In this document: positions 1 to 20,135 of the stretch, piece by piece | Layout of the letters: every line of letters begins with the position of its first letter | Numbering within the stretch: position 1 is the first letter of the stretch | Source: a virus | Length of the DNA stretch: 38,529 nucleotides | IMG/VR virus record: IMGVR_UViG_3300025141_016741 | Coordinates: 1 to 38,529 of that record | Strand: one strand, 5' to 3' | Notes under the pieces: generated by a model | Told to the model about the DNA's origin: nothing | Databases searched by the model: none | What the model saw: only the letters and a program-made list of their open reading frames with translations | Translations under genes and position numbers: made by a program

Positions 1-2
1 AA

Positions 3-86
3 GCCGGATTCAAGCTCTTTTCTTTATCTTACCAAACTCATGTGGGTGGTCCCCACATTGAAAGATATTTTGCTGGAAAAGTGTAG
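3..86 (+). CDS. C-terminal end of an upstream gene (partial)
   Basis: An open frame enters from the left edge and runs 27 codons to a TAG at 84-86. The last G of that stop is the first base of the next gene's GTG start. The visible tail contains THVGGPHIERYFAGKV. It is too short to name. Because the next genes are glycosyltransferase-type, it probably belongs to the same glycan operon, but that is only context. Confidence 0.6.
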   Translation, partial: AGFKLFSLSYQTHVGGPHIERYFAGKV

Positions 87-808
87 TGAGTAATAGATTC
101 GTATTTATTATGCCCGCATACAATGCGGAAGAAACTATTTCTAGAGCAATAATGTCTGTATGGTTTCAGACTTACCCAAACTGGAAAATAATAATCAGAG
201 ATGATATGTCATCTGATAGAACTCTTGAGATGATCTCTTCTATGAAAGATCAATTAGGATTAGGCCCAGATAGACTATCTTTTACATCAAATACTGAAAA
301 GATGTGGGAAATAAGAAATATTGTCGAAGCTCTAAAAGAGTGCGAGTCGAACGATATTGTTTGTCGTCTAGACGGAGATGATTGGTTGTGTGACACAGAT
401 GCACTTTCTATCATAAATCATAGATATGAATCTCTAAAGGTCGATGCGCTATGGACAGCTCACAGATGGTCTTTTTCTAATCATAATATTTCCGGACCTC
501 TTCCAAAAGATGCAAACCCATACGAACACCCATGGGTAAGCTCACATCTAAAAACTTTTCGCAAAAAAATGATTGAGAACGTAAAAGATGAAAACTTTAG
601 AGGAGAAGATGGAGAGTACTTCAAAAGAATTGGTGATCAAACAATATACTTGCCTGTTTTGCATCAAGCAAAAGGAAACTGGCATTACGAACCCATAGTT
701 ACTTATCATTACACAATAGACATGAACCCTAGCACATTTCAGACGAATGATGCTCTGTTTCAAAAAAGTGAAGGAGAGTATTTGCGATCCCGTGGGTACA
801 TAGAATGA
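86..808 (+). CDS. Family 2 (GT-A) glycosyltransferase
   Basis: This 240-residue protein is predicted to transfer a sugar from a nucleotide-sugar donor, in the cytoplasm or at the inner membrane face. The N-terminus has the GT2 pattern: a beta strand followed by PAYNAEETISRAI (residues 10-22), then IIIRDDMSSDRT (35-46), matching the nucleotide-binding strand and its acidic residues. RLDGDDW (94-100) fits the DXD metal/donor site. There is no transmembrane segment, and the length equals one catalytic domain. The GTG start overlaps the upstream TAG as TAGTG, and the stop overlaps the next ATG as ATGA, so translation is probably coupled. Acceptor and donor cannot be read from sequence. Confidence 0.85.
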   Translation: MSNRFVFIMPAYNAEETISRAIMSVWFQTYPNWKIIIRDDMSSDRTLEMISSMKDQLGLGPDRLSFTSNTEKMWEIRNIVEALKECESNDIVCRLDGDDWLCDTDALSIINHRYESLKVDALWTAHRWSFSNHNISGPLPKDANPYEHPWVSSHLKTFRKKMIENVKDENFRGEDGEYFKRIGDQTIYLPVLHQAKGNWHYEPIVTYHYTIDMNPSTFQTNDALFQKSEGEYLRSRGYIE

Positions 809-1554
809 AAAAAAACAATTGCTTTGAGAAATATAAAAATTTTCATTTTGGAGAGTCAGTTTTCGTCATCGGAACAGGCCCTACACTAGTTGATTTTTTC
901 CCGCAATCTGATCAATATGAGAATATTGTCAAAATTGGATGCAATGCTTTAGTCTACTCAGATGATGTTGAATTAGATTACTATTTTATTGGTGATCCGC
1001 AAACTAAAGCAAGAAAAAAATCTTTTATTAGCGATCCGCAACCCTACAGAGATTATAAGCCAAAAATTGAAAAATTTTGTCGTCTCAGTGAAAGCAAACC
1101 CCATTGTCTTACAACTGTAAACGGTGGGCCTTTACAGCATGCTAAACATTACTCTAGTGCTAGATACTCAAAATATATAGAGGGATATTACCCTCTCGAT
1201 ATTGTTACTGAGCCCATCAATCCTATAGGCTCAATTTCAATGGACATGATGCAATTTGCACTTTTTGCAGGTTTTAAGACTATATTTTTGTTAGGGCAAG
1301 ATTGCAACTATAATCAAAAAACTGCTGCTGGTGCAAAGGCTCATTTCAATGAAGATGCTCTGAAACATTACGAAACTGTTGCTACAAGAGTGGTTCGATA
1401 TTGGGAAAAAATGGCAAAATTTATTGAGAATGAACACAAAGATGTCCAAATATTTTCTGTCAATCCGATTTCCTTGAAATTTTTCAATGAAATTTCATAT
1501 GATAAGATTACAGAAACTAATGAATCAAGAAGAAGATACTTTGGTCTCTGTTAA
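805..1554 (+). CDS. DUF115 / MptE-like (Maf-type) protein
   Basis: A 249-residue protein of the DUF115 (6-hydroxymethylpterin diphosphokinase MptE-like) type. The sequence shows the Rossmann-like glycine turn FVIGTGPTL (20-28) and, near 162-170, FLLGQDCNY, the hydrophobic-then-GxDC pattern typical of these proteins. In bacteria, DUF115 proteins are common in surface-glycan clusters and include the Maf motility accessory factors linked to sialic/pseudaminic-type sugar transfer. A role as a glycosyltransferase-like protein for an ulosonic acid would fit the CMP-sugar enzymes just downstream, but that is inference from context. It overlaps the preceding GT gene by 4 bases. Confidence 0.65.
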   Translation: MKKNNCFEKYKNFHFGESVFVIGTGPTLVDFFPQSDQYENIVKIGCNALVYSDDVELDYYFIGDPQTKARKKSFISDPQPYRDYKPKIEKFCRLSESKPHCLTTVNGGPLQHAKHYSSARYSKYIEGYYPLDIVTEPINPIGSISMDMMQFALFAGFKTIFLLGQDCNYNQKTAAGAKAHFNEDALKHYETVATRVVRYWEKMAKFIENEHKDVQIFSVNPISLKFFNEISYDKITETNESRRRYFGLC

Positions 1555-1563
1555 GAAAAATTT

Positions 1564-2394
1564 ATGAAAAAAAATAAAAAAATTCTAGGAACATGGCAGG
1601 GAAAGCGATATGATTATTCCGATTTTGAAAAAATGACCATGAAATATCTAGTTGAAAAACTAGATTTATTGAATAAATCATTTAATGTTGTAGGAATTAA
1701 ACAGTCATTTGAAGATGAGGGGGCTCTTTTATCTGATGTTCTAACAATGAGGAGAATAACAGAGCTGTGCAATCTAGAAATGTATGTAAAAATTGGGGGA
1801 TGTGAAGCTATTACAGACATTAATAATTGTGCAACAATGGGCATTAATAATATTATTGCCCCCATGGTGGAAACACCCTATTCATTTCAAAAATTTATCA
1901 ATGCTGTCAAAAATATTACCCATACCCACTATTATTTTCTTTGTGAAACCAAAACAGCTTACAACAACATAGATGAAATTTTTAAAACTTCCGAAGCTTC
2001 AAAGCTTTCGGGTGTAATAGTGGGAAGATCCGATTTTGCTAAATCTTATAATCTAGATAAGGCCAGGGTAAACGAAGATTTTTTGGGAAAAAAAGTAAAA
2101 GATATTTTTGAAAAAAGCAAAGAAAGAGGATTGATAACTACCATGGGTGGAAATATCTCTGTAGATTCTGTAGAATTTATTCAATCCCTTTATGAGAAAG
2201 GCTTGCTTGATAAAGTAGAAACAAGAAATATTGTAGTGGAGCTAAATGATAATAATATAAAAGATTTAAAAAGCACAATTGAGGCAGTCATTATGTATGA
2301 AATTGAGTGGCTTCGTTTCAAGGCAATAAATTATACTAATATTGGAGAATCTTATCTTCGCAGAGTATCTATTTTAGAAAATAGAATCAAATGA
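1564..2394 (+). CDS. HpcH/HpaI-family aldolase-like enzyme
   Basis: A 276-residue TIM-barrel protein resembling the HpcH/HpaI aldolase/citrate lyase family, which cleaves or forms C-C bonds between pyruvate (or acetyl-CoA) and an aldehyde using a divalent metal. CETKTAYNNIDEI (127-139) matches the family strand carrying the metal-binding Glu (E128). VIVGRSDFAKSY (151-162) matches the strand carrying the metal-binding Asp (D157). KIGGCEAITDI and APMVETPYSF are further barrel strands of the family type. It lies immediately before an Fe-S protein, a HAD phosphatase and a CMP-sugar synthetase. I therefore infer that it makes a keto-deoxy sugar acid rather than acting in catabolism. This stretch is notably A/T-rich. 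Substrate unproven. Confidence 0.7.
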   Translation: MKKNKKILGTWQGKRYDYSDFEKMTMKYLVEKLDLLNKSFNVVGIKQSFEDEGALLSDVLTMRRITELCNLEMYVKIGGCEAITDINNCATMGINNIIAPMVETPYSFQKFINAVKNITHTHYYFLCETKTAYNNIDEIFKTSEASKLSGVIVGRSDFAKSYNLDKARVNEDFLGKKVKDIFEKSKERGLITTMGGNISVDSVEFIQSLYEKGLLDKVETRNIVVELNDNNIKDLKSTIEAVIMYEIEWLRFKAINYTNIGESYLRRVSILENRIK

Positions 2395-3557
2395 ATAATA
2401 GATTTAAAACACTTCAGAGATTGCTTCACGAAGAAAAATGTTTTAAAATGATTTGCGGCGCCGGCAATGAAGATAAAAAGTACGTAAAAAAACTTGCGCT
2501 AATTTACACATTGGCAGGTGCAAAGGTTCTAGACGTGTCAGCCAATGTAGAAGTAGTCAAATATGCTGCCCAAGGTATTGATTATGCATTTGATATTGCT
2601 AAAAAATTAGGTGTAAAATTAATTACAAGACCATTTATAATGGCAAGCATTGGCATGCCCGGGGATCATCATGTGAGAAAATCTTATATTGACCCTAATA
2701 CTTGTGTGGGGTGTAATTTGTGTATACCGGTTTGCCCAACAGATGCTATTCCTGAAAATTTTACTAATTTTTTGGATCACTTTAAATCACTGGGTGGTTC
2801 ATATGAGAAAAAAGATCAAGAAAAAGAAATTGTGATTAAGGACTTGTGCATTGGCTGCGGAAAATGTAGCAACATCTGTCCCAAAGATGAAATTATATCT
2901 TATAGACATAATGAAAAAGAGTTGCGAAATTTACTTCCAAAGTGCTTAGAAGCCGGCGCTGAATCCTTTGAATTGCATGCTGCCGTGGGTGAAGATGAAG
3001 TAACACTAAAAGAATGGAAAACAATTACAGATATTAATTCTACCAATTTTAATTCTATGTGCCTGGATCGACTAAATTTGGGAAATCTAAACTTAGAGCA
3101 TAGAATACAATTGGCAAAAAAAATCTCCGGAGAAAAATTAATAATCCAGGCAGACGGCTATCCAATGAGTGGTGGCGAAAATGACTTTAATACTACACTA
3201 CAGGCAATTGCCTGTGCAGATGTTATTAATAAAAAATTCAATATGAGGATAAATAAAAAATCAGCAGGCGGAGTTGTGGGTAAAGCTAAGTTATCATCTA
3301 AGCAATCTTATAGAAACCATGGTCATCATTTGGGTATTTATATTGTGCTCTCTGGCGGAACGAATAAACTATCTAAGGAGCTAGCTAACATGTGTAATGT
3401 TAGAGTTAATGGCGTAGCAGTAGGAACATATGCCCGTGATATTGTGGAAAAATATGTTCAAAATAAAAATTTCTACAATAATATTGATATCATTAAAAAA
3501 GCATATAAAGATGCATCTAAATTAGTTTATGCAAATATTGGGAGCATTCATGAATAA
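2391..3557 (+). CDS. LdpA-like protein with two 4Fe-4S cluster motifs
   Basis: A 388-residue protein with two ferredoxin-type motifs, C105-x2-C108-x2-C111-x3-C115 and C153-x2-C156-x2-C159-x3-C163, each followed by Pro, so it should bind two 4Fe-4S clusters. Flanking parts look like an alpha/beta barrel: KVLDVSANVEVVKYAAQGID near residues 45-64, IVLSGGTNK and GVAVGTYARDIVEKYV towards the C-terminus. This arrangement resembles LdpA, a cyanobacterial redox-active iron-sulfur protein, and LdpA-like proteins of polysaccharide loci. It overlaps the aldolase gene by 4 bases, and its C-terminus overlaps the following HAD gene, so it belongs to that module. Its reaction is unknown; electron transfer to, or radical/redox help for, the sugar-acid pathway is possible. 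Confidence 0.65.
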   Translation: MNNRFKTLQRLLHEEKCFKMICGAGNEDKKYVKKLALIYTLAGAKVLDVSANVEVVKYAAQGIDYAFDIAKKLGVKLITRPFIMASIGMPGDHHVRKSYIDPNTCVGCNLCIPVCPTDAIPENFTNFLDHFKSLGGSYEKKDQEKEIVIKDLCIGCGKCSNICPKDEIISYRHNEKELRNLLPKCLEAGAESFELHAAVGEDEVTLKEWKTITDINSTNFNSMCLDRLNLGNLNLEHRIQLAKKISGEKLIIQADGYPMSGGENDFNTTLQAIACADVINKKFNMRINKKSAGGVVGKAKLSSKQSYRNHGHHLGIYIVLSGGTNKLSKELANMCNVRVNGVAVGTYARDIVEKYVQNKNFYNNIDIIKKAYKDASKLVYANIGSIHE

Positions 3558-3930
3558 AAAATTAATAATAGCAGTTGATTTTGATGGAACGCTATGTGAA
3601 TATTCATTTCCAAAAATTGGAGAACAAACAGAAAGTCATGAAAAATTAATGAAAATTCTCATTCAAATGCAGAATGATGGACACAAATTGATACTGTGGA
3701 CAAATAGAGGAGATAATGAAAAATACCCTGTTTTAACCGAAGCAGTAGAATGGTGTGCTAACAAAGGATTAAAATTTGATGCTATTAACGAGAACTTGCC
3801 CGGGCAGATAAAAATATCCGGATTTAGCCCTAAAATTATGGCTGATTTTTATATTGATGATAAAGCCCTTGAATTTAATAATGATCTTTCTATGAGAAGT
3901 ACATTACAATTTTTAAAAGGTTTAGAGTAA
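3550..3930 (+). CDS. Small HAD-family phosphatase-like protein
   Basis: A 126-residue haloacid dehalogenase-type hydrolase. VDFDGTL carries the nucleophile pair D10 and D12, ILWTNRG is motif II, and FYIDDKAL holds the late acidic motif that binds Mg. There is essentially no cap domain, as in small KdsC-like or BT0820-like phosphatases. I chose the ATG at 3550 because GGGAG stands at the right distance upstream and the protein then begins directly with the catalytic strand; an ATG at 3529 would only add seven residues. It overlaps the Fe-S gene. Sitting next to a CMP-sugar synthetase, it plausibly dephosphorylates a sugar-acid phosphate before activation, as in KDO and sialic acid routes (inference). 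Confidence 0.75.
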   Translation: MNKKLIIAVDFDGTLCEYSFPKIGEQTESHEKLMKILIQMQNDGHKLILWTNRGDNEKYPVLTEAVEWCANKGLKFDAINENLPGQIKISGFSPKIMADFYIDDKALEFNNDLSMRSTLQFLKGLE

Positions 3931-3938
3931 GAGAAAAA

Positions 3939-4613
3939 ATGCTTAAAGCGCTAATACCGGTAAGATCAGGCTCTGTAAGAGTAAAAAATAAAAACATTAG
4001 ACCATTTGCAAACTCTACATTATTAGAAATAAAAATTAGACAACTTCTTAGAATTGATAAAATTGATGAGGTTTGCGTAAGTTCAGATTCTGATGAAATG
4101 TTGAAAATGGCAAAATCTCTGGGCGCAACTCCAGTACGCCGTGATGCAAAATATGCTTCTAGCGATTCATTGATTAATGATGTTTGGGCACACATGTCAC
4201 AAAATATTGTTTGTGAACATGTGCTCTACACAAATGTCACAAACCCATTGGTGCGAGACGAAACATATGACAAGTGCATAAAACAATATTTTGAAAGCAT
4301 AGACGATTATGATTCGCTTAACACAGTATCAATTATTAAAGAATTTTTGTGGCTTGGGGAAAAACCCATCAATTATGATTGGAAAAAACAACCCAGATCT
4401 CAAGACTTACCTGATGTTTTTTATCCTAATTTTGCTATTAATATTCTTAAAAGAGCAACAATGGAAAATCAGCGAAGTGTAATTGGTAAAAAATTTTACC
4501 CTTATGCGCTAGACAAAATAGAATCTATAGACATTGATGATGAAGAAGATTTTTTAATAGCTGACCTTCTTTACCATCACTTGAAAAGAAAAATAACGGA
4601 ACATAAGAAATGA
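3939..4613 (+). CDS. CMP-sugar synthetase (acylneuraminate cytidylyltransferase family)
   Basis: A 224-residue cytidylyltransferase of the NeuA/KdsB type, predicted to couple CTP with a ulosonic acid to give a CMP-sugar. The N-terminal LIPVRSGSVRVKNKNI (residues 5-20) is the CTP-binding loop in the variant RSGSxRxKxKN, followed by the usual strand/helix VCVSSDSDEML and the DxxYASSDS-like stretch KYASSDSLINDV. The length matches single-domain CMP-NeuAc synthetases. It lies between two HAD genes and downstream of an aldolase, the usual company of such enzymes. The substrate could be a sialic-like, legionaminic-like or other keto-deoxy acid; no NeuB-type synthase is visible, so classical sialic acid is not supported. 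Confidence 0.8.
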   Translation: MLKALIPVRSGSVRVKNKNIRPFANSTLLEIKIRQLLRIDKIDEVCVSSDSDEMLKMAKSLGATPVRRDAKYASSDSLINDVWAHMSQNIVCEHVLYTNVTNPLVRDETYDKCIKQYFESIDDYDSLNTVSIIKEFLWLGEKPINYDWKKQPRSQDLPDVFYPNFAINILKRATMENQRSVIGKKFYPYALDKIESIDIDDEEDFLIADLLYHHLKRKITEHKK

Positions 4614-4638: not shown

Positions 4639-5109
4639 ATGAATAAAGTAGAAAGCAAGCTAATGGATCCGACTAATTTATTTGCTAATGCCCCAGAAAA
4701 GACAAAAAAAGAAAAATCACAAGAAATTAGAGAGCATTCTTTTCCTGATGAAACAGAGCAGATCGGAATAGACTTTGACGGTGTTGTGCACAGAAACTCA
4801 AAAGGATTTTTTGATGGAACAGTATACGATGATCCGGTAGACGATATTGAGTCGCTTCTAAAAGAGCTCAGCAGCAAATATAAACTAGTTCTTTTTTCTG
4901 TCAAGGCAAGAAAAGATAGAATGCTGATAAATGGAAAAACAGGCACTGAATTGATTCATGATTGGCTTGTTGAGAAAAACTTAAGGCACTATTTTGTTGA
5001 GATAACTTCAGAAAAACCGAGAGCTGTTTGCTACATAGACGATAAAGCAGTTTATTTCAAAGCTGTAGATACATGCATAGTTCAGCTAAAAGAAAGAGGA
5101 ATACTATGA
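4639..5109 (+). CDS. Second HAD-family phosphatase-like protein
   Basis: A 156-residue HAD-type protein with a 40-residue charged N-terminal extension before GIDFDGVVH (catalytic D45 and D47). LVLFSVKAR fits motif II, and CYIDDKAVYF is the C-terminal acidic motif, nearly the same as YIDDKAL in the HAD gene about 1.1 kb upstream. Otherwise the two proteins differ clearly, so this is an old paralogue or an independent member rather than a recent duplication. The stop overlaps the next gene's ATG (ATGA). It probably acts on a phosphorylated sugar intermediate of this cluster; why two such enzymes flank one cytidylyltransferase is not clear. Confidence 0.7.
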   Translation: MNKVESKLMDPTNLFANAPEKTKKEKSQEIREHSFPDETEQIGIDFDGVVHRNSKGFFDGTVYDDPVDDIESLLKELSSKYKLVLFSVKARKDRMLINGKTGTELIHDWLVEKNLRHYFVEITSEKPRAVCYIDDKAVYFKAVDTCIVQLKERGIL

Positions 5110-6014
5110 AAAAAATGTATGTCAATCGAGCACCGGTCGAAGGTCCATGGGGTGGAGGAAACAATTTCGTAAAAGCACTATATCAGTATGGTAAAGACTA
5201 TGATTTTGATGTTTCAAACAGGCTTGATGAAAATACTGATGTTGTATTTATGATAGACCCAAGACCAGATCAAACTGGATTTTCTATCAAGGAGATTTCT
5301 GCTTTTAAGGAATATAAGCCGTCATCAAAACTAGTCTATCGAATAAACGAATGTGATGCTAGGAAGGGTGAAGTCAATAAGATAGACCCACTAATTTCTT
5401 ATGCTAGCAATTTTGTAGATCTTTCTGTTTTTATTTCTGGCTGGATAAAAGACTATCATACAAAAGAAGATTGGCACTGCAATAACAACGAAGTGATATT
5501 CTCAGGTACAAATAAAGATCATTTTATTCCGGGTGAAAAAATCAACAATGGAAAAATAAACTTGGTGACACATCACTGGTCAGACAATCCATACAAAGGG
5601 CAAGATATCTATGAGCTTTTAGACTCTTGGGTAGCCACTAATAAAGACTTTGCTTTTACATACATTGGAAGGACGAAAGCTAGCTTTGAAAACACATGTG
5701 TTTTACCGCCAACTTTTGGCAAAGACTTGGGAGAAAAACTAAGTAAGTATGATGTGTATGTTTCAGCCTCAAGGCATGACCCAGGACCCAATCACATTAT
5801 TGAAAGCTTAGCATGCGAAATTCCAACTTATGCTCACTCTGCCTCCGGGGGAGCTGTTGAAATGGTAGGTGACTCTCATGTTTATGATTCTTTTGAAGCT
5901 TTAGAAAAGATACTTTTGCAAAAAAAATTCCCAAAAAACGAAGGCTTGTTGGTCCCTAATGACTGGCAAAAATGTATGAAAGAGTATTTCGAGTCTATTT
6001 GGAAAGTTTTATGA
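5106..6014 (+). CDS. GT-B glycosyltransferase (family 4-like)
   Basis: A 302-residue glycosyltransferase with a short N-terminal acceptor domain. The opening residues KKMYVNRAPVEGPWGGGNNF form the usual first strand and glycine loop. The C-terminal donor domain shows YVSASRHDPGPNHIIESLAC, where D-x7-E replaces the classic E-x7-E of family 4, followed by a glycine-containing loop (SASGGAVEMVG). The start at 5106 overlaps the upstream stop by ATGA; an in-frame ATG at 5073 would add eleven residues within the previous gene and is less likely. It is shorter than typical GT4 enzymes (about 350-400), a feature shared with three neighbouring GTs here. Linkage and donor unknown. Confidence 0.75.
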   Translation: MKKMYVNRAPVEGPWGGGNNFVKALYQYGKDYDFDVSNRLDENTDVVFMIDPRPDQTGFSIKEISAFKEYKPSSKLVYRINECDARKGEVNKIDPLISYASNFVDLSVFISGWIKDYHTKEDWHCNNNEVIFSGTNKDHFIPGEKINNGKINLVTHHWSDNPYKGQDIYELLDSWVATNKDFAFTYIGRTKASFENTCVLPPTFGKDLGEKLSKYDVYVSASRHDPGPNHIIESLACEIPTYAHSASGGAVEMVGDSHVYDSFEALEKILLQKKFPKNEGLLVPNDWQKCMKEYFESIWKVL

Positions 6015-6862
6015 AATGGGGCCTGATTGGTTTTGGAAGATGGGGAAAGATACTGTCATATGCCATCAGCAAAAACTATCATCTGAAGGCTGTGTCTTCT
6101 CGCAATGTAGACAGAGTAAGAAGTGACATAAAAGAAAAAAGCTTGGGTTATAAAGCCATGTCAAGCGAGCAGATATTTGAAGATTCTGAAATAGAAGTTG
6201 TTGCTGTAACAGTTCCAATTGAAAGTTTATTTTTTTATGCAAAAGAGTCTATTGAGAAAGGCAAGCACGTCTTTTTAGAAAAACCTGGCCCGAAGTCAAA
6301 AGAACAGTTAGTGATACTAAAAGATGCTGCCAAAAGAAACAATGTGGTATGCTATACAAATTACATTTATTCTGAAGACTTAGCTTTAAAATTTTTAGTA
6401 GAAAAAATAGCTTCGTCATCTATAAAAAGCATTTTCATTAGCTGGGACAAATGGGGAACTTTCAATAACGATATTATCGATAATTTAGTAACACATCAGC
6501 TGTCTGTTCTTTTGAGAATAATCAAAAAACCTCTCAGCTTGATCGATGTTCAAATTGAAAAAAATAAATTTTTTGCAAGCTATGAGACAAAAAATACTAG
6601 AATATCTTTAGAGATTAATCGTATTTCTAAAATGAACAAAGGCATGCAAATGAAAATAATAACAGAAGACAGCATTTATAACTGGTCTCCTGGAAAAGTC
6701 ACATGTATGAAGAAAAATATCTTTACAGATGAAAGTGATATGCTAGTCAATCAAACAAAAAGAATGAATAGCATGGTTGAAAGTATGAGCTTAGATTCTA
6801 ATTTTAGTCTTGTCGAAAAAGTGAATAACCTAGTCTTAAACATAAGAAGTTTTTCAAAATGA
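6011..6862 (+). CDS. Gfo/Idh/MocA-family oxidoreductase
   Basis: A 283-residue NAD(P)-dependent sugar dehydrogenase-like protein. KWGLIGFGRWGKIL is the Rossmann glycine loop at the N-terminus, VVAVTVPIESLFFYAKESIE is the family's third nucleotide-binding strand, and HVFLEKPGPKS contains the family EKP motif. The usual C-terminal alpha/beta substrate domain follows, a little shorter than average (family about 320-350). The start at 6011 gives an ATGA overlap with the GT stop. An earlier in-frame ATG at 5972 would only add sequence out of character with the fold. It likely oxidises or reduces a nucleotide-sugar or a free sugar derivative for the cluster. Confidence 0.75.
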   Translation: MKWGLIGFGRWGKILSYAISKNYHLKAVSSRNVDRVRSDIKEKSLGYKAMSSEQIFEDSEIEVVAVTVPIESLFFYAKESIEKGKHVFLEKPGPKSKEQLVILKDAAKRNNVVCYTNYIYSEDLALKFLVEKIASSSIKSIFISWDKWGTFNNDIIDNLVTHQLSVLLRIIKKPLSLIDVQIEKNKFFASYETKNTRISLEINRISKMNKGMQMKIITEDSIYNWSPGKVTCMKKNIFTDESDMLVNQTKRMNSMVESMSLDSNFSLVEKVNNLVLNIRSFSK

Positions 6863-9769: not shown

Positions 9770-10149
9770 TGAGCAGTGAAAACAAAGAAAATAGTGCAGC
9801 AGAACCCATAAAGTTTGTTCCAAAAGGTTGGGGATTCGAGAAGTGGATTGTAAACTGTGAAGAATACTGTGGAAAACTTCTATACTTCGCAAAAGGAAAG
9901 CGGTGCTCATGGCACCATCATAAACTGAAAGATGAAGTCTTCTTCATACAGTCAGGAAAAATCCTGGTAAAGTTCTCTGACTATGATGACATTGATCTCG
10001 CAGAAGAAAAGATTCTGTCCAAGGGCGACAAGTTTCATGTATACAGAGGACTCAGGCATCAAATGATAGCTCTAGAAGATACTGAGCTTTTTGAGTTTTC
10101 GACGCAGCACTTTGACAGTGATAGTCATCGAATCATAAAAGGGGATTAA
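9769..10149 (+). CDS. Cupin protein (mannose-6-phosphate isomerase/dTDP-sugar epimerase-like fold)
   Basis: A 126-residue single-domain cupin. GKRCSWHHHKLKDEVFFIQSG is the first cupin motif: a His triplet, then a Glu, then the glycine turn. FHVYRGLRHQMIALED is the second, with its own His. These residues would bind one metal ion. Small cupins in nucleotide-sugar clusters act as epimerases or isomerases, or as regulators of them, but this one lacks the size and residues of RmlC. The GTG start shares a G with the upstream TAG; a helix-free N-terminal tail of about 15 residues precedes the fold. Confidence 0.75.
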   Translation: MSSENKENSAAEPIKFVPKGWGFEKWIVNCEEYCGKLLYFAKGKRCSWHHHKLKDEVFFIQSGKILVKFSDYDDIDLAEEKILSKGDKFHVYRGLRHQMIALEDTELFEFSTQHFDSDSHRIIKGD

Positions 10150-10159
10150 AACAAAAGTT

Positions 10160-13206: not shown

Positions 13207-14148
13207 GTGAAGATAACAGTAGTAGGATGCGGCAATATGGGAACTAATCACGCAAGAATTTTGCGTGACTTAGATTCTTTAGAGGCAATTGTGGAACAAA
13301 GCCCAACTCGAAGAAAACGTCTTCATGAGCTGGGCTACGGAAAATTTTTAAGAAGCAGTATAGAAGAGACTGAAAGTCATGGGTATGTAATTGCAACACC
13401 ATCAGCTTCCCATCGAAAGATATTAGAAAAAACTCTTCAAAAAACTAATTTTATTCTTTTGGAAAAGCCAGCGCTTCTTAACGAAAAAGAATATAAAAGT
13501 ATCCTTGAAAATTTTGACACATCTAAAATATGCGTCGGTCATATTGAAAGATTTAATCCTGCTGTTGAAAAAGCAAAAGAAGACTTTTCTAGCAGTATTT
13601 CGAGGTGTGAGTTCTTTAGATACTCTTCTAGGCCTAAGCAAATTAAAGACGTAGGTGTCTGGAAAGATTTGGGCGTCCACGATGTAGACCTTATGATTCA
13701 TTTTATGGGAATTCCAGAATCTGTAGCTTGTCATGCTGTAATGGACAACAATATAGACATATCTTTTCATGCAAATTTTGGATTTAGCGACGGAAAAAGT
13801 GCAGCTGTAAATGTAAGCTGGCTGTCTACAGCCAAAAGAAGAGAAGTTCAAATATACGGCTTAGACGGAGAAGCAAATGTAGATTTGCTTAAGCAGAAGA
13901 TCTCATTCCTCTCAGAGCACCAGCAAAGTTCTAAGCCGGACAATCACTTTTCTCCTACAGTCTCACAGTCTAAAATGATTTATGACATGGCAAGAGCTGA
14001 ACCTCTTCGTAGAGAGATTGAGCATTTCTTGAGAGTCGTCAAAGGAGAAGAAAAGCCGCTGATTTCTTTAGAACATGCACAGCTAGTAGAGAGCATAATC
14101 TCTAAATCTTATCAATCGTTTCGTCTAGGGAAAAGAATTGAAATATGA
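13207..14148 (+). CDS. Gfo/Idh/MocA dehydrogenase, GnnA-like
   Basis: A 313-residue oxidoreductase. ITVVGCGNMGTNHARIL is the glycine loop, FILLEKPALL is the EKP motif, and VGHIERFNPAVEKAKE is the catalytic-region signature seen in UDP-N-acetylglucosamine 3-dehydrogenase (GnnA)-type members, which oxidise C3 of UDP-GlcNAc before transamination. SWLSTAKRREVQIYG is the later strand of the C-terminal domain. The start is GTG at 13207, with GAAGG about 6 bases upstream. A 35-base gap precedes it, one of the larger in this block. With the DegT gene and the formyltransferase downstream, an amino-sugar route is inferred. Confidence 0.7.
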   Translation: MKITVVGCGNMGTNHARILRDLDSLEAIVEQSPTRRKRLHELGYGKFLRSSIEETESHGYVIATPSASHRKILEKTLQKTNFILLEKPALLNEKEYKSILENFDTSKICVGHIERFNPAVEKAKEDFSSSISRCEFFRYSSRPKQIKDVGVWKDLGVHDVDLMIHFMGIPESVACHAVMDNNIDISFHANFGFSDGKSAAVNVSWLSTAKRREVQIYGLDGEANVDLLKQKISFLSEHQQSSKPDNHFSPTVSQSKMIYDMARAEPLRREIEHFLRVVKGEEKPLISLEHAQLVESIISKSYQSFRLGKRIEI

Positions 14149-15224
14149 GAGTGCTTTTGACAGCAGCTGGAAGTCCGGGCTTTTTGACTTTATATAAGTC
14201 TTTTTCTTCCTACGAAAAAAATATAGATATTTTTGGGTGTGACTGCAATCCTAATTCATTTGGCTTAGCAGTGCTAAAAAATGGATTTTGTGTACCGACA
14301 GCATCGTCTACGAACTATATAGAAGAAATTGTTAGACTTTGCAAAGAAAACAAAATCGAAGTTCTAATACCTTGTTCTGATGAAGAAGTCCAAGTCATTG
14401 GCGAAAACATTGAGATATTCATTAGGGAAGATATTAGAGTTTTATCTAATACAGAAAGGCTGACAGATATTTTTAACAAGGAAAAATTTCTTCTCTCCGT
14501 AAGAAAAACTTTTCCTGAAATAGTTCCTGATTTTTTGGCAATTAGATCCTCTAAGGAATTTGAAGATGCATATTGTAAGCTTTCTAAGAAGCATAGCGTT
14601 TTATGTGTAAAGCCAGCCATGGCACATGGCAGTAGAGGGTTTCGAATTATTAGAGAATCTAATCTAAAAGATTTTTTCTCTAGCAAGCCAAATGCTAGAG
14701 AAATTTCTTATGAAGCGTTGCTTTATCTGCTGAGTCAAGAAGAAGAATTTCCAACATTGCTTCTAATGGAATACATGTCAGAAGACGAGTATAGCATCGA
14801 TTGTATAGACCTGAATAAAAGATTTGTTGCTGTGAGTCGAAGAAGAGATGTGATAAAAGATGGAATATGCTCAGCAGGTGAAGCAATTGAGAAAAGCGAT
14901 CTTCTTCATTACTGCAAAGAGCTCTATGATCACTTTAAAATAAAATATCATGCCAATTTTCAGTTTAGATATGACAAGAATAATCAAGCTAAAATTGTTG
15001 AACTAAACCCTAGATTTTCTGGTACAATGGAGCTTTGTCGAGGAGCAGGAGTCGATTTTGCATCTTTATCGATGAATAAGCTTTTAGAAATACCAGAAAA
15101 AGATTTGCCTCAAATACGCTGGGGTACAAAAATGCAAAGAGTTTGGCAAGAAGTATTTTTCCAAGGTGAAAAAACTTTTGTTTTAGAAAGTATAGGTAAA
15201 AATCTAGAGGAAATGAATGTCTAA
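14145..15224 (+). CDS. ATP-grasp ligase-like protein (carbamoyl-phosphate-synthase-type)
   Basis: A 359-residue protein of the ATP-grasp superfamily, which joins a carboxylate to an amine or other nucleophile with ATP. The N-terminal part is a Rossmann-like pre-ATP-grasp domain (MRVLLTAAGSPGFLTLYKSF). The ATP-grasp domain includes VLCVKPAMAHGSRGFRII with the Lys and glycine-rich lid, LLLMEYMSEDEYSIDCI, and VELNPRFSGTMELCRGAG with the Glu/Asn metal ligands. These features resemble carbamoyl-phosphate synthase-like ligases found in polysaccharide loci. Attaching an amino acid or acyl group to an amino sugar would fit the neighbours. It overlaps both the Gfo/Idh gene (ATGA) and the deacetylase gene (8 bases). 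Confidence 0.7.
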   Translation: MRVLLTAAGSPGFLTLYKSFSSYEKNIDIFGCDCNPNSFGLAVLKNGFCVPTASSTNYIEEIVRLCKENKIEVLIPCSDEEVQVIGENIEIFIREDIRVLSNTERLTDIFNKEKFLLSVRKTFPEIVPDFLAIRSSKEFEDAYCKLSKKHSVLCVKPAMAHGSRGFRIIRESNLKDFFSSKPNAREISYEALLYLLSQEEEFPTLLLMEYMSEDEYSIDCIDLNKRFVAVSRRRDVIKDGICSAGEAIEKSDLLHYCKELYDHFKIKYHANFQFRYDKNNQAKIVELNPRFSGTMELCRGAGVDFASLSMNKLLEIPEKDLPQIRWGTKMQRVWQEVFFQGEKTFVLESIGKNLEEMNV

Positions 15225-15831
15225 CTTTACCTTATCACACTACAAAGAGACCATATCTGATTTTCAACAAGCAGGTTATCAAACCACACTGCTGGACAAG
15301 CATGTCCAGGGAAATCAATTAGTTCTTGTACATGATGTAGACATCGATGTTTCTTTAGTTTTACCAATGGCTAAAATTGAAAAGTCTGTCGGCGCTGTTT
15401 CAACATATTTTTTTAGAATGGGAGCCAAAAACTACAATCTTTTCTCTAGAGAGACTATTAGAATTGTAAGAGAAATTAAAAACATGGGACATGATGTAGG
15501 GTATCATTATGAACCTCCCGTTTCAAATCATCTCGCAGCAGCCGACAGCGTTCAAAAAGTTATGTCTTTTTTTACAGAGCAGACGGGAATAGAATTGAAT
15601 TATTTCAACGTTCATGAGCCAGCAAGAACAGGAATTGACATGTCTTCTGTTTTACCTGAAAGAAACCGATGCTATAATTCTTTGTTCTTTAAAGACTTCA
15701 AATACATTAGCGATAGTAGCGCCAGATGGCGTGAGGGCTGTTTTTGTGGGCATGTAGAGGAGCACGAAAAATTGCTGGTTCTTACACATCCCTTTTGGTG
15801 GTATCCAAATTCCCCAACCGAAAACTACTAA
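15217..15831 (+). CDS. Polysaccharide deacetylase-like (carbohydrate esterase) protein
   Basis: A 204-residue protein. LVLVHDVDIDVSL near residues 31-43 replaces the TFDD motif with HDVD, the metal-binding start of the NodB-type fold. NMGHDVGYHYEP near 89-100 fits the second conserved metal-binding His segment. FNVHEPARTG and LVLTHPFWWYP are the C-terminal strand motifs. It is shorter and simpler than most NodB proteins and lacks a signal peptide, so it would act in the cytoplasm, on a nucleotide-sugar or a lipid-linked sugar rather than on the finished polymer. Overlap with the ATP-grasp gene suggests a joint step. Confidence 0.65.
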   Translation: MSNFTLSHYKETISDFQQAGYQTTLLDKHVQGNQLVLVHDVDIDVSLVLPMAKIEKSVGAVSTYFFRMGAKNYNLFSRETIRIVREIKNMGHDVGYHYEPPVSNHLAAADSVQKVMSFFTEQTGIELNYFNVHEPARTGIDMSSVLPERNRCYNSLFFKDFKYISDSSARWREGCFCGHVEEHEKLLVLTHPFWWYPNSPTENY

Positions 15832-15842
15832 AGGGAATAATA

Positions 15843-16535
15843 ATGAAAATCGGTGTTTTTGCTTATAACTTTGAGCACTGGAAAACGCAGCAAGGAATAA
15901 TAAATTTGTGTATGGCTGGTTATAAGCCATCTGTTATTTTTGCTGCAGATCCTGTCAAGCTATCTTTCTATAAATCAAAAATAAGAGTTTCTCCCAAAGA
16001 CCAGTTTTTGTGGCACCCAAGAAAAATAGCAGAGCATTACGGAATAGAATATAAAGTCGTTTCACATAATTCTCAAGAAACTGCAGATGCTGTGAAAGAG
16101 CACTCTTTAGATTTGGGAATAATTTTGGGGGCTAGAATACTAAAACCAGTCGCTTTCGAAGGATTTAGGCTGGGTGTTATTAACATGCATCCCGGAATAT
16201 TGCCTCAAAATAGAGGATTAGACAATCTAAAATGGGCAATCTTAAATGGATACGAGCAGGGCGTTACATCTCATCTAATAGATTCAAAAATCGATAGAGG
16301 GCTGCTAATAGAAAAGGAAACTATTAATGTGTATGCAGACGACACCTTAGTAGATCTTCACATTAGAATACAAAGCTTAGAGCAAAAATTAATGATAAGT
16401 TCTATTAGTAAATTAGAAAGAGAAGGGAAAGAAAGCCTAGCATCGCTACCAGAAGGAAACTATTACAAATCAGTCTCTCCAGACTTAGAAGAAATACTCA
16501 TGGAAAAATTTGAGACATACAAAAAGGAAAAGTAG
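15843..16535 (+). CDS. Formyltransferase-like (sugar N-formyltransferase type)
   Basis: A 230-residue protein with the methionyl-tRNA-formyltransferase-like N-terminal fold. The catalytic triad is in place: Asn114 and His116 in VINMHPGILPQNRG, and Asp147 in GVTSHLIDSKIDRG. Enzymes of this fold use N10-formyl-tetrahydrofolate, and in glycan clusters they formylate 3- or 4-amino sugars. LGIILGARIL is the strand leading to the folate site. The C-terminal domain of the tRNA enzyme is absent. I chose the ATG at 15843 after AGGGAATAATA; longer in-frame starts would run into the deacetylase frame. It precedes an aminotransferase, which fits amino-sugar formylation. Confidence 0.75.
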   Translation: MKIGVFAYNFEHWKTQQGIINLCMAGYKPSVIFAADPVKLSFYKSKIRVSPKDQFLWHPRKIAEHYGIEYKVVSHNSQETADAVKEHSLDLGIILGARILKPVAFEGFRLGVINMHPGILPQNRGLDNLKWAILNGYEQGVTSHLIDSKIDRGLLIEKETINVYADDTLVDLHIRIQSLEQKLMISSISKLEREGKESLASLPEGNYYKSVSPDLEEILMEKFETYKKEK

Positions 16536-16537
16536 AT

Positions 16538-17350
16538 ATGCCTGCAGTTGTTAGAAATATATTTGAAAATTATGTCAAGGAGAGATTTGACTTAGAGGAT
16601 TGTATAGCTGTCAATAATGGAACAGCAGCACTAATAGCACCTCTTTGGTCGCTTGATCTAGGTCCCGGAGATGAGGTTATAACTACCCCTTTTACTTTTA
16701 TTGCAACAGCTAACGCAATTGTAATAGCTGGTGCCAAGCCAGTATTTGTAGACATAGACCCAGAAACTTATCTCATTGATCCTAAGAAAATTGAGGATGC
16801 AATAACACCCAATACAAAAGCAATTATCCCTGTTCATCTTTACGGAAGAATTTGTGAAATGGAAAAGATTAATGAAATCGCCAAGAGAAATAATTTAGTT
16901 GTGATTGAAGATACAGCCCAAGCATTTGGGGCGGAATCAAAAACAGGAAAATATGCTGGTATGATGTCAGATGCTGGCACATTTTCTTTTTATAAAACAA
17001 AGAATATATCTACTTTTGAAGGGGGGATGATTTGCATACCAAAAGGATCGATGCTAGACTCAAGAAAGATTAGGTCTATTTGCGATCAAGGGCAGGTTGG
17101 CAAGTATCATCATGAATATATTGGTTTTAACTTTCGCTTGGCTGAGCCCTTATGCTTGATGGCATTAGAACAGATGAAAATTCATATGACAGGAATTAAG
17201 GCAGAGCTAGGGATTAGAGGGCCAGAACAAGGTCATTATCCCAACGTTGTCTACGACCAGCCGTCTTATAAGAGACTAGGATTTTCCGGAAACTGTCCTA
17301 TAGCAGAAAAAGTGGCTCAAAAAATTAGAAGGAATCAAGAAGAAAAATGA
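16538..17350 (+). CDS. Shortened DegT/DnrJ/EryC1 aminotransferase
   Basis: A 270-residue PLP enzyme-like protein, about 100 residues below the family norm. VNNGTAALIAPLWSLDLGPG (26-45), TTPFTFIATANAI and VVIEDTAQAFGA (with D125) are typical, and FSFYKTKNISTFEGGM carries the PLP Lys (K155). After LEQMKIHMTGIK, roughly 80 residues present in relatives seem to be missing; the frame resumes at HYPNVVYDQPSYKR and GNCPIAEKVA. The usual C-terminal helix (about 30 residues) and the first 20-30 residues are also absent. The frame is continuous, so this is a compact or degenerate enzyme rather than a frameshift. Sugar transamination is uncertain because of the losses. Confidence 0.7.
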   Translation: MPAVVRNIFENYVKERFDLEDCIAVNNGTAALIAPLWSLDLGPGDEVITTPFTFIATANAIVIAGAKPVFVDIDPETYLIDPKKIEDAITPNTKAIIPVHLYGRICEMEKINEIAKRNNLVVIEDTAQAFGAESKTGKYAGMMSDAGTFSFYKTKNISTFEGGMICIPKGSMLDSRKIRSICDQGQVGKYHHEYIGFNFRLAEPLCLMALEQMKIHMTGIKAELGIRGPEQGHYPNVVYDQPSYKRLGFSGNCPIAEKVAQKIRRNQEEK

Positions 17351-18297
17351 AAATATATGTAGTGACAAGAAAAAAAGACGCTGACAACTTTATGCCCTGG
17401 AAAGAAACAGAAGTTCCTGTCAATAAGTTGTCTGATCTTGGCGCAATTCACATTCATGATGAGAAGTTTTTTGAATCTGAAATTGCTAACGTAAGTGAAG
17501 AAGATACAGTTATTATCTACATCGGCTTGACCAAAGAAGAGCATAAGAAAAAGCTAAAAGACTTAAAGTGCACAAAAGTATTGCGCTCCATGGACGCAAA
17601 AAATACAGACGGTATAGTACATCGAAGAAATCTAGAGTTTCACGAAGAAGTAGGAAGGTTTGACTATTGGCTTATCGGAATTCCTAACGAGAAATACAAC
17701 TCTGTCCTTAGCGAAAGAGGAATCAATGGAATAAACTTTACTCATTGCACAAACTTTGACGATATCGATGAGCCTGAAAATGTATTTGCGCAGAAGCAGG
17801 CTGATGTTATTGTAAGCGGCCAGATGCATGAAACATGTTATCCAGTTAGATGGAAAGTCTATCAGGCACTTACTCAAACAAATGAGATAAGAGGAATGCT
17901 CTTGCCGCACCCCGGATATGAGAGAGATGCTTTGAGGCACCCATATGTTGGAGATGCTTACGTCGAATTTTGTAAAAATTTTTGGTCTGGCGCTGTAGGG
18001 ACCGGTCATGCAGACGGACTTCATATGAAATTTCTTGAGTTTGCTAAATCATACACATTGCCTCTGGGAAATACACCAACCTACATGGACGAAGCATGTG
18101 CCAAGGAAGTTTTAGCAGTTGGTTTAGGCGAACCCTTCGACGAAACAAATAAAATATTGAAAGATATTTTGTCGAATAAGGCAGCGCTAAAAGAAAGAAT
18201 AATAAGATATTCACAAGCTGTTAGGAATGCATATGATGTCAATGTTGTTGTTCCAGATGTTTACGACAAAATTTTGAACAAGAAGTTTGATTTCTAA
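17347..18297 (+). CDS. Possible GT-B-like glycosyltransferase
   Basis: A 316-residue protein that I cannot place firmly. EDTVIIYIGLTKEE and CTKVLRSMDAKN read as an N-terminal Rossmann-like half. QADVIVSGQMHETCYPVRWK and PLGNTPTYMDEACAKEVLAV look like the donor domain and C-terminal loop of CgeB-type or GT1_2-type glycosyltransferases. The end LKERIIRYSQAVRNAYDV is the typical closing helix of such proteins. It lacks an obvious E-x7-E. It starts inside the aminotransferase stop (ATGA) and is followed by the sugar dehydrogenase. Glycosyltransferase is the best guess from the closing half. Confidence 0.4.
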   Translation: MKIYVVTRKKDADNFMPWKETEVPVNKLSDLGAIHIHDEKFFESEIANVSEEDTVIIYIGLTKEEHKKKLKDLKCTKVLRSMDAKNTDGIVHRRNLEFHEEVGRFDYWLIGIPNEKYNSVLSERGINGINFTHCTNFDDIDEPENVFAQKQADVIVSGQMHETCYPVRWKVYQALTQTNEIRGMLLPHPGYERDALRHPYVGDAYVEFCKNFWSGAVGTGHADGLHMKFLEFAKSYTLPLGNTPTYMDEACAKEVLAVGLGEPFDETNKILKDILSNKAALKERIIRYSQAVRNAYDVNVVVPDVYDKILNKKFDF

Positions 18298-18309
18298 AAA
18301 AGGGTAAAA

Positions 18310-19266
18310 ATGAAAAAGAGGACAAAGAGCATCGCAGTCATCGGCCAAGGATTTGTCGGTGGATCAATTACAACTGTGATGAATGAAAGAGGTTTTAGAG
18401 TTTTTAGTCATGACAAGGCTGGAAAGATAGCTGATGGCGGAGAAACCCCTGGCTGTTTAGTTCCGGGAAAAGAAACATTGGCCAGCTTTGTATCAGCATG
18501 CGAAAATACAGCAGGGTTTACTGGAGTTTACTTTGTGTGCTTGCCTACACCAATGAAAGAGTCAGGAGAGGCTGATCTTTCAATAGTTGAATCAGTTCTT
18601 TTAGATATTTCTTCTACAGAAGGAAATAAAAAGAGGATAGCTGTTGTAAAGTCCACTGTCCCGCCAGGTAGCACACAAAAGTGGAACGAGATGGTTGGTG
18701 AAAATTTATCAATTATTTTTAATCCAGAGTTTCTAACGGAGGCAAATGCTCTCAATGACATGCGTAATCAAGATAGAATAGTTTTGGGCGGCCCAAGACC
18801 TCACATCAACAAAGTAAGAAATATATTCCAAAGAGCTTTTCCGGATGTGCCTATTATAAAAACTTCTTCAACCACAGCTGAAATGGTAAAGTATGTAACA
18901 AACGTACACTTGGCATCAAAAGTTGCGCTAGCAAACGAGTTTTACCAAATTTGTGTAGCGTTAGACAAGAACGGTGGAGATGTTGACTATGACAAAGTAA
19001 TTGAGTATGCTACATTTGATAGACGGTTAGGCAATTCTCACTGGAGAGTTCCTGGGCCAATGCCAGCAGATGACACTGGCGATCCTGCATTTGGTTTTGG
19101 GGGTTCTTGTTTTGTAAAAGACCTCAATGCTCTAATGTATCAAGCTAAATCTTTGGGAGTTGATCCTAAAGTAATGACAGGAGTTTGGCAAAAAAATTTA
19201 GAAGTTCGTCCTCAAAGAGACTGGGAATGTCTAAAGGGGAGAGCTATTTCTGAGGAAGAAGAATGA
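18310..19266 (+). CDS. UDP-glucose/GDP-mannose dehydrogenase family protein, C-terminally short
   Basis: A 318-residue NAD-dependent nucleotide-sugar dehydrogenase. IAVIGQGFVGGSI is the NAD loop and VYFVCLPTPMKESG the family strand. AVVKSTVPPGSTQKW and FNPEFLTEANAL carry the active-site Thr and Glu. KYVTNVHLASKVALANE has the catalytic Lys/Asn helix. FGFGGSCFVKDLNAL holds the catalytic Cys (C267), with Val in place of the usual Pro. Normal members are about 390-440 residues, so most of the third, nucleotide-binding domain is missing. All residues of the two-step oxidation to the uronate seem kept. It overlaps the next SDR gene by ATGA, suggesting the uronate is epimerised next. Confidence 0.8.
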   Translation: MKKRTKSIAVIGQGFVGGSITTVMNERGFRVFSHDKAGKIADGGETPGCLVPGKETLASFVSACENTAGFTGVYFVCLPTPMKESGEADLSIVESVLLDISSTEGNKKRIAVVKSTVPPGSTQKWNEMVGENLSIIFNPEFLTEANALNDMRNQDRIVLGGPRPHINKVRNIFQRAFPDVPIIKTSSTTAEMVKYVTNVHLASKVALANEFYQICVALDKNGGDVDYDKVIEYATFDRRLGNSHWRVPGPMPADDTGDPAFGFGGSCFVKDLNALMYQAKSLGVDPKVMTGVWQKNLEVRPQRDWECLKGRAISEEEE

Positions 19267-20135
19267 AAGTTTTAGTGACGGGCGGCCTAGGATTTGTTGG
19301 ATCACACTTAGTAGATCACTTATGTGATTTAGGACATGAAGTTTTTGTATGGGACAATTTATGTACAGAATCAGCATCAGAAGACTACATGAGAGAAGAT
19401 GTTGTATATACAAAAAAAGACGTTAGAAATATTTGTGATGATGAACATCCTGACTATGAAGTAATTTATCACTTAGCTGCTTATGCAAGAATTCAGCCCT
19501 CCTTTGAAATGCCGCTTGAGTATCTTTCAAATGACATCATGGGCACTGCTGCTATTTGTGAGTTAGCTAGAAAGCTAGGAAGCAGAGTTGTCTATGCCGG
19601 ATCTTCGTCAGCATATGGAGGTCCCATGCTCAATCCTTACGCATTTGCTAAATACACAGGAGAGCAAGTTTGTCAAATGTACAAGGAAGTCTATCAAATG
19701 AGCACAGTCACAGCTAGATTTTTCAATGTTTACGGAGACCGACAGCCAACCACAGGAAAATGGGCTACTGTCGTTGGCATTTTTGAAGAGCAGACAAAAA
19801 ATATGCAGCCTCTTACAATTACTGGCGACGGCGATCAAAGGCGAGATTTTACTCATGTGTCTGATATAGTTTCAGGATTTGCTGCCCTAGGACATAAAGA
19901 CTGGAGTCAGGATGATAAAATGTTGGTTTTCAATATCGGCACAGGCGAAAATCATTCTATTAATGAATTAGCTGATATGTTCACCGGCGAAAAATCTTAC
20001 ATACCTGCTCGTCCAGGTGAAGCTAGGGATACTTTGGCGGACAATAGTATGCTAAAAAGTTGCACTGACTGGAAGCCTTCTACACTAGTCACTGAATATG
20101 TACAAAGTTTTATTGATTCTGTGAAAAAAAACTAG
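19263..20135 (+). CDS. SDR nucleotide-sugar epimerase/dehydratase
   Basis: A 290-residue extended SDR. VLVTGGLGFVGSHLVDHL is the NAD loop, followed by an acidic VWDN. VIYHLAAYARIQPSFE is the family strand, VYAGSSSAYGG the Ser strand, and PYAFAKYTGEQVCQ has the catalytic Tyr-x3-Lys. ARFFNVYGDRQP and RDFTHVSDIV are the later motifs of the GalE/UDP-glucuronate-epimerase group. Direct coupling to a UDP-sugar dehydrogenase gene suggests it works on the uronate product (epimerase or decarboxylase), but the family cannot be split here. It is the last gene before a change of function and a 20-base gap. Confidence 0.8.
   Translation: MKVLVTGGLGFVGSHLVDHLCDLGHEVFVWDNLCTESASEDYMREDVVYTKKDVRNICDDEHPDYEVIYHLAAYARIQPSFEMPLEYLSNDIMGTAAICELARKLGSRVVYAGSSSAYGGPMLNPYAFAKYTGEQVCQMYKEVYQMSTVTARFFNVYGDRQPTTGKWATVVGIFEEQTKNMQPLTITGDGDQRRDFTHVSDIVSGFAALGHKDWSQDDKMLVFNIGTGENHSINELADMFTGEKSYIPARPGEARDTLADNSMLKSCTDWKPSTLVTEYVQSFIDSVKKN

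Follow-up and report, generated by a model that had tools for sequence, protein, structure and literature searches.

The virus-derived stretch of DNA analysed here (the window, 38,529 bases) carries a large locus for the activation, modification and transfer of sugars, which lies beside a block of phage baseplate genes. The window is the entire IMG/VR viral record IMGVR_UViG_3300025141_016741, which is linear and has no end repeats, and thus represents a fragment cut on both sides. All 39 window genes lie on the + strand, and the first 24 of them (g1 to g24) form a tightly packed run of open reading frames (ORFs) between positions 86 and 20135, most of them sharing a few to a few dozen bases with a neighbour. 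An earlier note on this DNA had described such a one-directional, mostly overlapping glycan gene run ending at 20135. While the run was borne out, its limits had to be redrawn: past the nuclease gene g25 follow the family 4 glycosyltransferase (GT4) genes g26 and g27, which bring the glycan gene set to ca. 26 genes and the end of the glycosyltransferase (GT) block to 23499, and the record, being cut at both ends, does not reach the left end of the island. The functions named below are predictions from family membership, based on Pfam, NCBIfam, PHROGs and reading of the sequence; g14, g19 and g22 gave no Pfam match below E 0.001, so that their descriptions come from reading only.

On the right flank, the baseplate genes gp25 and gp6 were confirmed. 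The sigma factor call was weak for g29 alone (E 0.015); among 15 g29 homologues, 7 matched the late sigma family phrog_234 (best 8e-6). Using g23 and g29 as queries, we retrieved 89 viral loci; addition of L010 and L011 and removal of near-identical sequences gave 74 non-redundant contigs. Because these loci were found by anchor similarity, the following contig counts measure conservation of order rather than prevalence among all phages. Genes g26 and g27 were adjacent in 52 of the 74 contigs, the nuclease preceded this pair in 49, and the order nuclease, GT4, GT4, (g28), sigma-like factor was kept in 43, with 39 of the latter also showing gp25 and gp6 in the fetched stretch. Moreover, 38 of the 49 nuclease-bearing contigs had at least two window-type glycan families within up to 10 kb upstream. 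In the closest relative (G021, 38,937 bases), the g23 to g31 flanks are 50–78% identical to those of the window and keep its gene order, apart from g24 standing before g23, whereas the cassettes differ from those of the window despite the kept flanks. Because the identical junction is found in dozens of independent contigs, a misjoin is excluded: the glycan region is phage DNA, and the join between 20135 and 21080 is genuine. This upholds the earlier note, which had the island running into nuclease, sigma factor and baseplate genes as phage DNA and not as a host fragment; the search for gene-order conservation that it proposed excludes both a break at the join and a location in a host chromosome.

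The limits of the island were traced by fetching, for ten long records, the 40 kb upstream of g23, with ORFs of relatives called mechanically. In nine long relatives, the + strand island starts at c5, a conserved two-domain GT of ca. 640 amino acids (aa), sometimes with a few more genes ahead of g1, and c5 is itself preceded by a conserved minus-strand block containing PhoH-, DinG- and ClpP-like genes (by reading). From c5 to g23, the island of these nine relatives spans 8.4–21.9 kb and 9–27 genes, all on the + strand. Orthologues of the GT genes g1, g8, g11 and g12 occur in 8 of the 10 long records and those of g16 in 6, whereas orthologues of g2–g7, g9, g10, g13, g14 and g17–g22 were present in none or one of the 10. 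Among 89 island ORFs of five relatives, Pfam profiles gave 15 GT2, 10 epimerase and 10 GT4 matches, as well as methyltransferases, nucleotidyltransferases, acetyltransferases and DegT aminotransferases. The site is therefore a glycan locus throughout, although its genes differ. Some of the variable genes recur elsewhere, with g16–g19 and g21–g22 appearing in order in L017, and g21 being 74% identical to its L035 counterpart as compared to 49% for the gp6 protein of that same contig, so that some cassette genes show a higher similarity than the backbone does. Cassettes therefore travel. Because the GC content of the island tracks that of its own phage flank over a range of 30–54% (r = 0.98, nine records), the islands look like long-term residents. 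In short, the island is a glycan locus of hypervariable content whose site in the phage genome is fixed, in a widespread lineage of uncultivated myoviruses.

Table 1. Genes of the glycan locus and its flanks in the window, with predicted functions.
Feature	Coordinates	Strand	Basis
C-terminal end of a gene truncated at the left record edge (AGFKLFSLSYQTHVGGPHIERYFAGKV, then stop)	3..83	+	Sequence reading
g1, GT2 glycosyltransferase	86..808	+	Pfam
g2, DUF115/MptE-like, alpha-2,3-sialyltransferase-like	805..1554	+	PF01973 E 4e-6, below cut-off; phrog_4603 E 4e-5
g3, HpcH/HpaI-family pyruvate aldolase	1564..2394	+	Pfam; best solved relative YfaU
g4, LdpA-like, two 4Fe-4S motifs inserted in a TIM-barrel-like fold	2391..3557	+	Pfam, NCBIfam, structure model
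g5, HAD-family phosphatase-like	3529..3930	+	phrog_1238 E 7e-27
g6, CMP-sugar synthetase (PseF/KdsB-like cytidylyltransferase)	3939..4613	+	PF02348 E 7e-20; TIGR03584 80 bits, under cut-off
g7, HAD-family protein	4639..5109	+	phrog_1238 E 2e-9
g8, GT4 glycosyltransferase	5073..6014	+	Pfam
g9, Gfo/Idh/MocA oxidoreductase	5972..6862	+	Pfam
g10, FAD-dependent oxidoreductase	6859..7914	+	Pfam
g11, GT4 glycosyltransferase	7914..8831	+	Pfam
g12, GT4 glycosyltransferase	8828..9769	+	Pfam
g13, cupin	9769..10149	+	PF07883; phrog_7851 E 2e-59
g14, class I methyltransferase candidate, motif ILDFGTGL	10160..11146	+	Reading
g15, NDP-sugar epimerase/dehydratase (SDR)	11143..12207	+	Pfam, NCBIfam
g16, GT2 glycosyltransferase	12200..13171	+	Pfam
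g17, Gfo/Idh/MocA oxidoreductase	13207..14148	+	Pfam
g18, ATP-grasp enzyme	14145..15224	+	PF15632 E 6e-28
g19, polysaccharide deacetylase-like (HDVDID, GHDVGYHYE)	15217..15831	+	Reading; L017 homologue 51%
g20, formyltransferase, probable start 15843	15843..16535	+	PF00551 E 2e-18
g21, short DegT aminotransferase, 270 aa	16538..17350	+	PF01041 E 8e-76
g22, GT-B-like candidate	17347..18297	+	Reading; homologues in L017, L033
g23, short UDP-glucose dehydrogenase, right-end island anchor	18310..19266	+	Pfam, NCBIfam
g24, GalE/UDP-xylose-synthase-like SDR	19263..20135	+	Pfam, NCBIfam
g25, Cas4/RecB-like PD-(D/E)XK exonuclease, anchor	20156..21022	+	Pfam, PHROGs, synteny
g26, GT4 glycosyltransferase, anchor, wide-clade core	21080..22330	+	Pfam, synteny
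g27, GT4 glycosyltransferase, anchor	22309..23499	+	Pfam, PHROGs, synteny
g29, late-sigma-like factor, flank anchor	23802..24530	+	PHROGs, synteny
g34 (gp25) and g35 (gp6-like), baseplate wedge genes, phage flank	27459..29790	+	Profile matches
g37–g39, tail-region proteins, phage flank	31349..38527	+	LamG/ConA-like lectin domains on g37, g39

Machinery for exporting a glycan was not found. When transmembrane (TM) segments were counted by a hydropathy threshold, which is not a trained predictor, no protein with at least four of them appeared in the window or in the islands of nine relatives, while the Escherichia coli controls Wzx and Wzy scored 9 and 6. The initiating transferase family PF02397 was present in 0 of 15 long relatives (controls positive in 9; PF00953 was not searched in the relatives), and profile scans of the window gave no match to an initiating sugar-phosphate transferase. 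Flippases, polymerases and transporters were likewise not found, either in the window or in its relatives, and of the GtrABC serotype conversion system only a weak GtrB-like match was seen, to the soluble GT2 g1, with no polytopic membrane protein. The earlier note had spoken of a complete set, which is accurate for sugar activation, modification and transfer but does not extend to these initiation and export functions. Because polytopic membrane proteins and PF02397 are both lacking, export via a lipid-carrier route of its own is unlikely for this locus.

The variable content includes the g3-g4-g5 module. Its gene order was kept in all 18 viral loci found with a g4 alignment (in two of them with a gene of ca. 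600 aa between g3 and g4), and a g6-type CMP-sugar synthetase directly followed it in 5 of these 18. Next to its 18 viral relatives, g4 has two bacterial ones: a Pelagibacteraceae contig has the g3-g4 pair (L006:816-3124), with the contig end cutting the module after g4, and a Chloroflexota contig has all three genes for aldolase, LdpA-like and HAD proteins (L007:9213-11152). A survey of 197 SAR11-order and 151 Chloroflexota-phylum genomes retrieved g4 in one of each, in both cases the starting genome. By these counts, g4 would be rare and accessory in bacteria, and the module one that bacteria and phages share. Neither g3 nor g4 had a match in 50,697 isolate phage records, and g18 likewise matched no isolate phage.

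The best solved relatives of g3 are the 2-keto-3-deoxy sugar aldolases YfaU (E 1.5e-6) and GarL, over ca. 70 residues. The g4 protein scored 143 bits against the NCBI LdpA equivalog, for which the cut-off is 450 bits, and is thus LdpA-like rather than the circadian LdpA. Its structure model is TIM-barrel-like with a poorly modelled Fe-S insert, and Foldseek returned Rubisco, class II aldolases and DAHP synthase; because all TM-scores normalised by g4 were <0.45, we drew no function from these matches. A literature search on LdpA in polysaccharide clusters found nothing relevant. For g2, there was neither a PDB relative nor, in our scan, a close viral relative, and we regard it as a candidate CMP-sugar transferase on the basis of its family matches. 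The PDB held no relative for g22 either. Together, these assignments suggest that a pyruvate-derived 2-keto-3-deoxy sugar would be CMP-activated by g6 and transferred by g2. Beside the modules of L008, L009, L011 and L012 we also observed a thiamine diphosphate-dependent enzyme of ca. 595 aa (L008:6764-8554) that is absent beside the window module, and several of these loci have a second HpcH/HpaI aldolase adjoining the module, again not seen in the window.

Two of the locus enzymes are unusually short. The UDP-glucose dehydrogenase g23 (318 aa) retains the NAD-binding and central domains and the catalytic Cys motif GGSCFVKD, while the UDP-binding domain at the C-terminus is missing. Among 84 viral homologues, the median length is 314 aa, and 67 of the 84 have the catalytic Cys motif. 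The short form of g21 recurs in L017 (287 aa) and L035 (273 aa); g21 is without most of the small domain, which is unusual among DegT aminotransferases. Comparison of homologues gave nonsynonymous divergence (dN) of 0.17–0.36, with synonymous divergence (dS) saturated or >2 in most comparisons, so that precise dN/dS ratios are not available for most of them; low dN with mostly saturated dS fits purifying selection. As a separate observation, intein-like halves interrupt the UDP-glucose dehydrogenase gene of L063 (9962-12055; also L064 and L066, and its C-terminal half in L062) within the catalytic Cys motif (GGHC/FPKD). An endonuclease-like ORF lies between the two halves, which is reminiscent of the split inteins of 'fractured genes'. 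A literature search on split inteins in UDP-glucose dehydrogenase found nothing relevant.

Other scans of the window concerned its surroundings and expression. No tRNAs or Rfam RNAs were found in the window, and positions 14001–22000 had no similarity to isolate phages at the DNA level. T4-type late promoters (TATAAATA) gave a single match, on the minus strand and below the expected number. A sigma-70 promoter and terminator scan of 18200–28200 returned 33 promoter-like sites versus 22.9 (standard deviation 4.4) in shuffled sequence, and was uninformative on operons. Among the tail-region proteins, the LamG/ConA-like domains of g37 and g39 (31349-34834 and 35768-38527) make these possible glycan binders adjoining the glycan locus. 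The small proteins g32 and g33 (26567-27401), located among putative baseplate genes, are related to each other, and g33 resembles a duplicated repeat unit.

With regard to function, we propose that a mostly conserved set of soluble GTs (c5, g1, g8, g11 and g12, often g16, plus g26 and g27) would form a backbone, to which interchangeable cassettes would provide unusual sugars. In the window, such cassettes would supply a CMP-activated 2-keto-3-deoxy sugar (synthesis by g3, g4 and g5, activation by g6 and transfer by g2), amino and formamido sugars (via g17–g21), and UDP-glucuronate-derived sugars (via g23 and g24). All of these steps would be cytoplasmic and would place the glycan onto virion proteins before release, with those of the tail or fibres as foremost candidates, and host receptors and defences would then select for glycan variation. 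A virion target is favoured because the locus lies beside the baseplate block and because the island of G021 directly follows a gene encoding a fibre-like protein of 957 aa, the C-terminus of which is S74-like (by reading). Mycobacteriophage GTs are indeed described as decorating capsid and tail proteins (Freeman et al. 2023, as cited in PMC12619734). Glycosylation of virion proteins thus stands as the best explanation of the locus, and we give it an even chance of being correct. Several points weigh against it. Virion glycosylation in this lineage is a proposal from genes, from which we infer the sugar products, the target and the selective reason; the g3-g4 chemistry draws on family resemblance, and the structure model of g2 was discarded (pLDDT 41). 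Lipid-linked precursors of the host are another possible acceptor for soluble GTs, with the host exporting the extended product, and some of the GTs may act on DNA, given the thymidylate-synthase-family proteins in seven relatives.

The first of these other targets, the host surface, was also named in the earlier note, which had listed host-surface remodelling next to virion decoration; our data favour the latter and lend less support to the former. Lipopolysaccharide (LPS), capsule or O-antigen would in that case be changed in the cytoplasm during infection and exported by the host, so that the receptor is lost to superinfecting phages or to the phage's own progeny. Cyanophage clusters have been read in this way (PMC7824862, PMC3037559), the amino, formamido and CMP-keto-deoxy sugar types are typical of O-antigens, and the module genes occur in the Pelagibacteraceae and Chloroflexota contigs. 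However, the initiating transferase, flippase, polymerase and transporter were not found in window or relatives, g3, g4 and g18 have no match in isolate phages, and the locus is embedded beside the baseplate block. A host-surface target is possible only with borrowed host export, and we consider it rather unlikely.

Glycosylation of DNA, though unlikely as well, is a serious rival, and the lineage may possess the substrate. Here, 5-hydroxymethylcytosine made by the phage would be glycosylated by the UDP-glucose dehydrogenase/UDP-xylose-synthase-like pair together with g26 and g27, and perhaps further genes, in order to evade restriction and CRISPR, for which T4 and RB69 offer precedents (RB69: PMC6024577). 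Thymidylate-synthase-family proteins scored above cut-off in seven relatives of the gp6 lineage (G001:180800-181537, G002, G004, G008, G013, G015 and G016; L124–L129). One of these proteins is closest to the MilA CMP hydroxymethylase in the PDB (E 1e-43 versus 1e-22 for thymidylate synthase), a second matches MilA and the T4 dCMP hydroxymethylase above thymidylate synthase, and Asp is read where thymidylate synthase has Asn; the two MilA-closest proteins suggest hydroxymethylcytosine DNA in this lineage. The g26-g27 core and its adjoining exonuclease are compatible with such a role too. In the opposite direction, no hydroxymethylase gene is present in the window (a fragment) or in the 171-kb relative G007, and in G001 and G002 the thymidylate-synthase-family gene lies >110 kb from the island. 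Moreover, 26 genes including a CMP-sugar branch far exceed the needs of known DNA modifications, and g26 matches general GT4 enzymes rather than T4 AGT or BGT. A search for the Tet_JBP oxygenase found it in 0 of 19 records, with the control genomes likewise without a match.

It is very improbable that the island is functionless stuffer or decaying host-derived DNA kept through headful packaging, a possibility raised for cyanophages (PMC3037559) and one to which the shortening of g21 and g23 relative to cellular enzymes might point: both short forms are intact and conserved, in three contigs for g21 and in 84 homologues for g23, dN is low against saturated dS, and both the site and the one-strand order are fixed in dozens of contigs. 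A slight GC step (0.363 versus 0.397) could be invoked for an assembly artefact that joined bacterial glycan DNA to a phage contig, but such a chimera is refuted by recurrence of the junction in dozens of independent contigs, G021 included, and its probability is practically nil.

Large glycan clusters in phages are not new as such, and the rarity that the earlier note attributed to them has to be seen against published cases. LPS-type clusters were described in the cyanophages P-SSM2 and S-SSM7 with their function left open (PMC3037559), or were read as serving host-surface diversification (PMC7824862). Like the window, these cyanophages combine a large contiguous set of sugar-nucleotide and GT genes with a myovirus genome and contents that vary between relatives, and the S-SSM7 cluster also encodes no polytopic membrane proteins. 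Their carriers, however, are T4-like Kyanoviridae with clusters near hli03, psbA and tRNAs or near phoH, whereas the window belongs to a different lineage and has its site beside sigma and baseplate genes; its gp6 gave no match to T4-like cyanophages, the window has no tRNA, and a PhoH-like gene (by reading) is located in the left flank of relatives. The window fragment holds 26 genes as compared to 15 in the major cluster described for P-SSM2, and fixed anchors with cassette swapping are documented here over dozens of contigs.

Closer in arrangement are Flavobacterium phage immuto and Microcystis phage Mel-JY01, which share the gene order nuclease, GT4, GT4 (interrupted in Mel-JY01 by an IMP dehydrogenase gene). 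Both also encode further GTs, aminotransferases, a methyltransferase and an epimerase, together with related gp6, sigma-like and LamG proteins, and the immuto cluster, with ca. 10 glycan genes following the nuclease and GT pair, is likewise soluble. They differ in that their cassette is smaller and lies behind the GT pair, at a distance from the baseplate genes, in protein identities of only ca. 28–32%, and in that no g3-g4-g5 module was seen in them. Because both share the nuclease-GT-GT order with glycan genes downstream, an old linkage is suggested.

The moraphages, large aquatic phages with four core GT orthogroups, a sigma factor, gp25, gp6, PhoH and unexplained variable islands (PMC12619734), share gp25, gp6, the sigma factor, several core GTs and PhoH (by reading) with the window lineage. 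Of 15 long relatives of the window, itself a fragment, only one gave a match to their hallmark DNA polymerase B (PF00136), and for this reason we do not file the window phage with them. The moraphage paper describes no glycan locus, anchors or cassettes (PMC12619734). Bacterial O-antigen and capsule loci resemble the island in their conserved flanks and swappable sugar cassettes, but possess the flippase, polymerase, initiating transferase and exporter that were not found in the window lineage. Cytoplasmic GTs of viral origin are also known from PBCV-1 chloroviruses and mycobacteriophages. PBCV-1 makes nucleotide sugars and glycosylates its virion autonomously. The gene number of the window is far above that of mycobacteriophages, where the virion target has been shown, whereas here it is proposed from genes. 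New in the present lineage are the swappable architecture at a fixed site, the conserved GT frame, the general lack of export machinery and the g3-g4-g5 module.

Tentatively, and with rather more doubt than confidence, we picture the island as a phage counterpart of the O-antigen locus, in which fixed flanks and a GT frame would hold horizontally swapped cassettes, among them an undescribed keto-deoxy-sugar pathway (aldolase, Fe-S protein, HAD protein and CMP activation), and which would act in the cytoplasm to diversify the glycan 'serotype' of the virion. Glycan clusters of phages have been noted since the cyanophage work and were left unexplained, as either functional or 'stuffer DNA'. Here, the fixed anchors, the GT frame and the swappable cassettes, kept in dozens of uncultivated phages of 30–54% GC, and the lack of export machinery argue for a function inside the infected cell. 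The g3-g4-g5 module in turn points to an unstudied sugar pathway common to phages and marine bacteria. The three targets considered here (virion, DNA and host surface) are testable in the cultured relative immuto, and with this locus, the variable islands marked for later study in the moraphage paper (PMC12619734) gain content.

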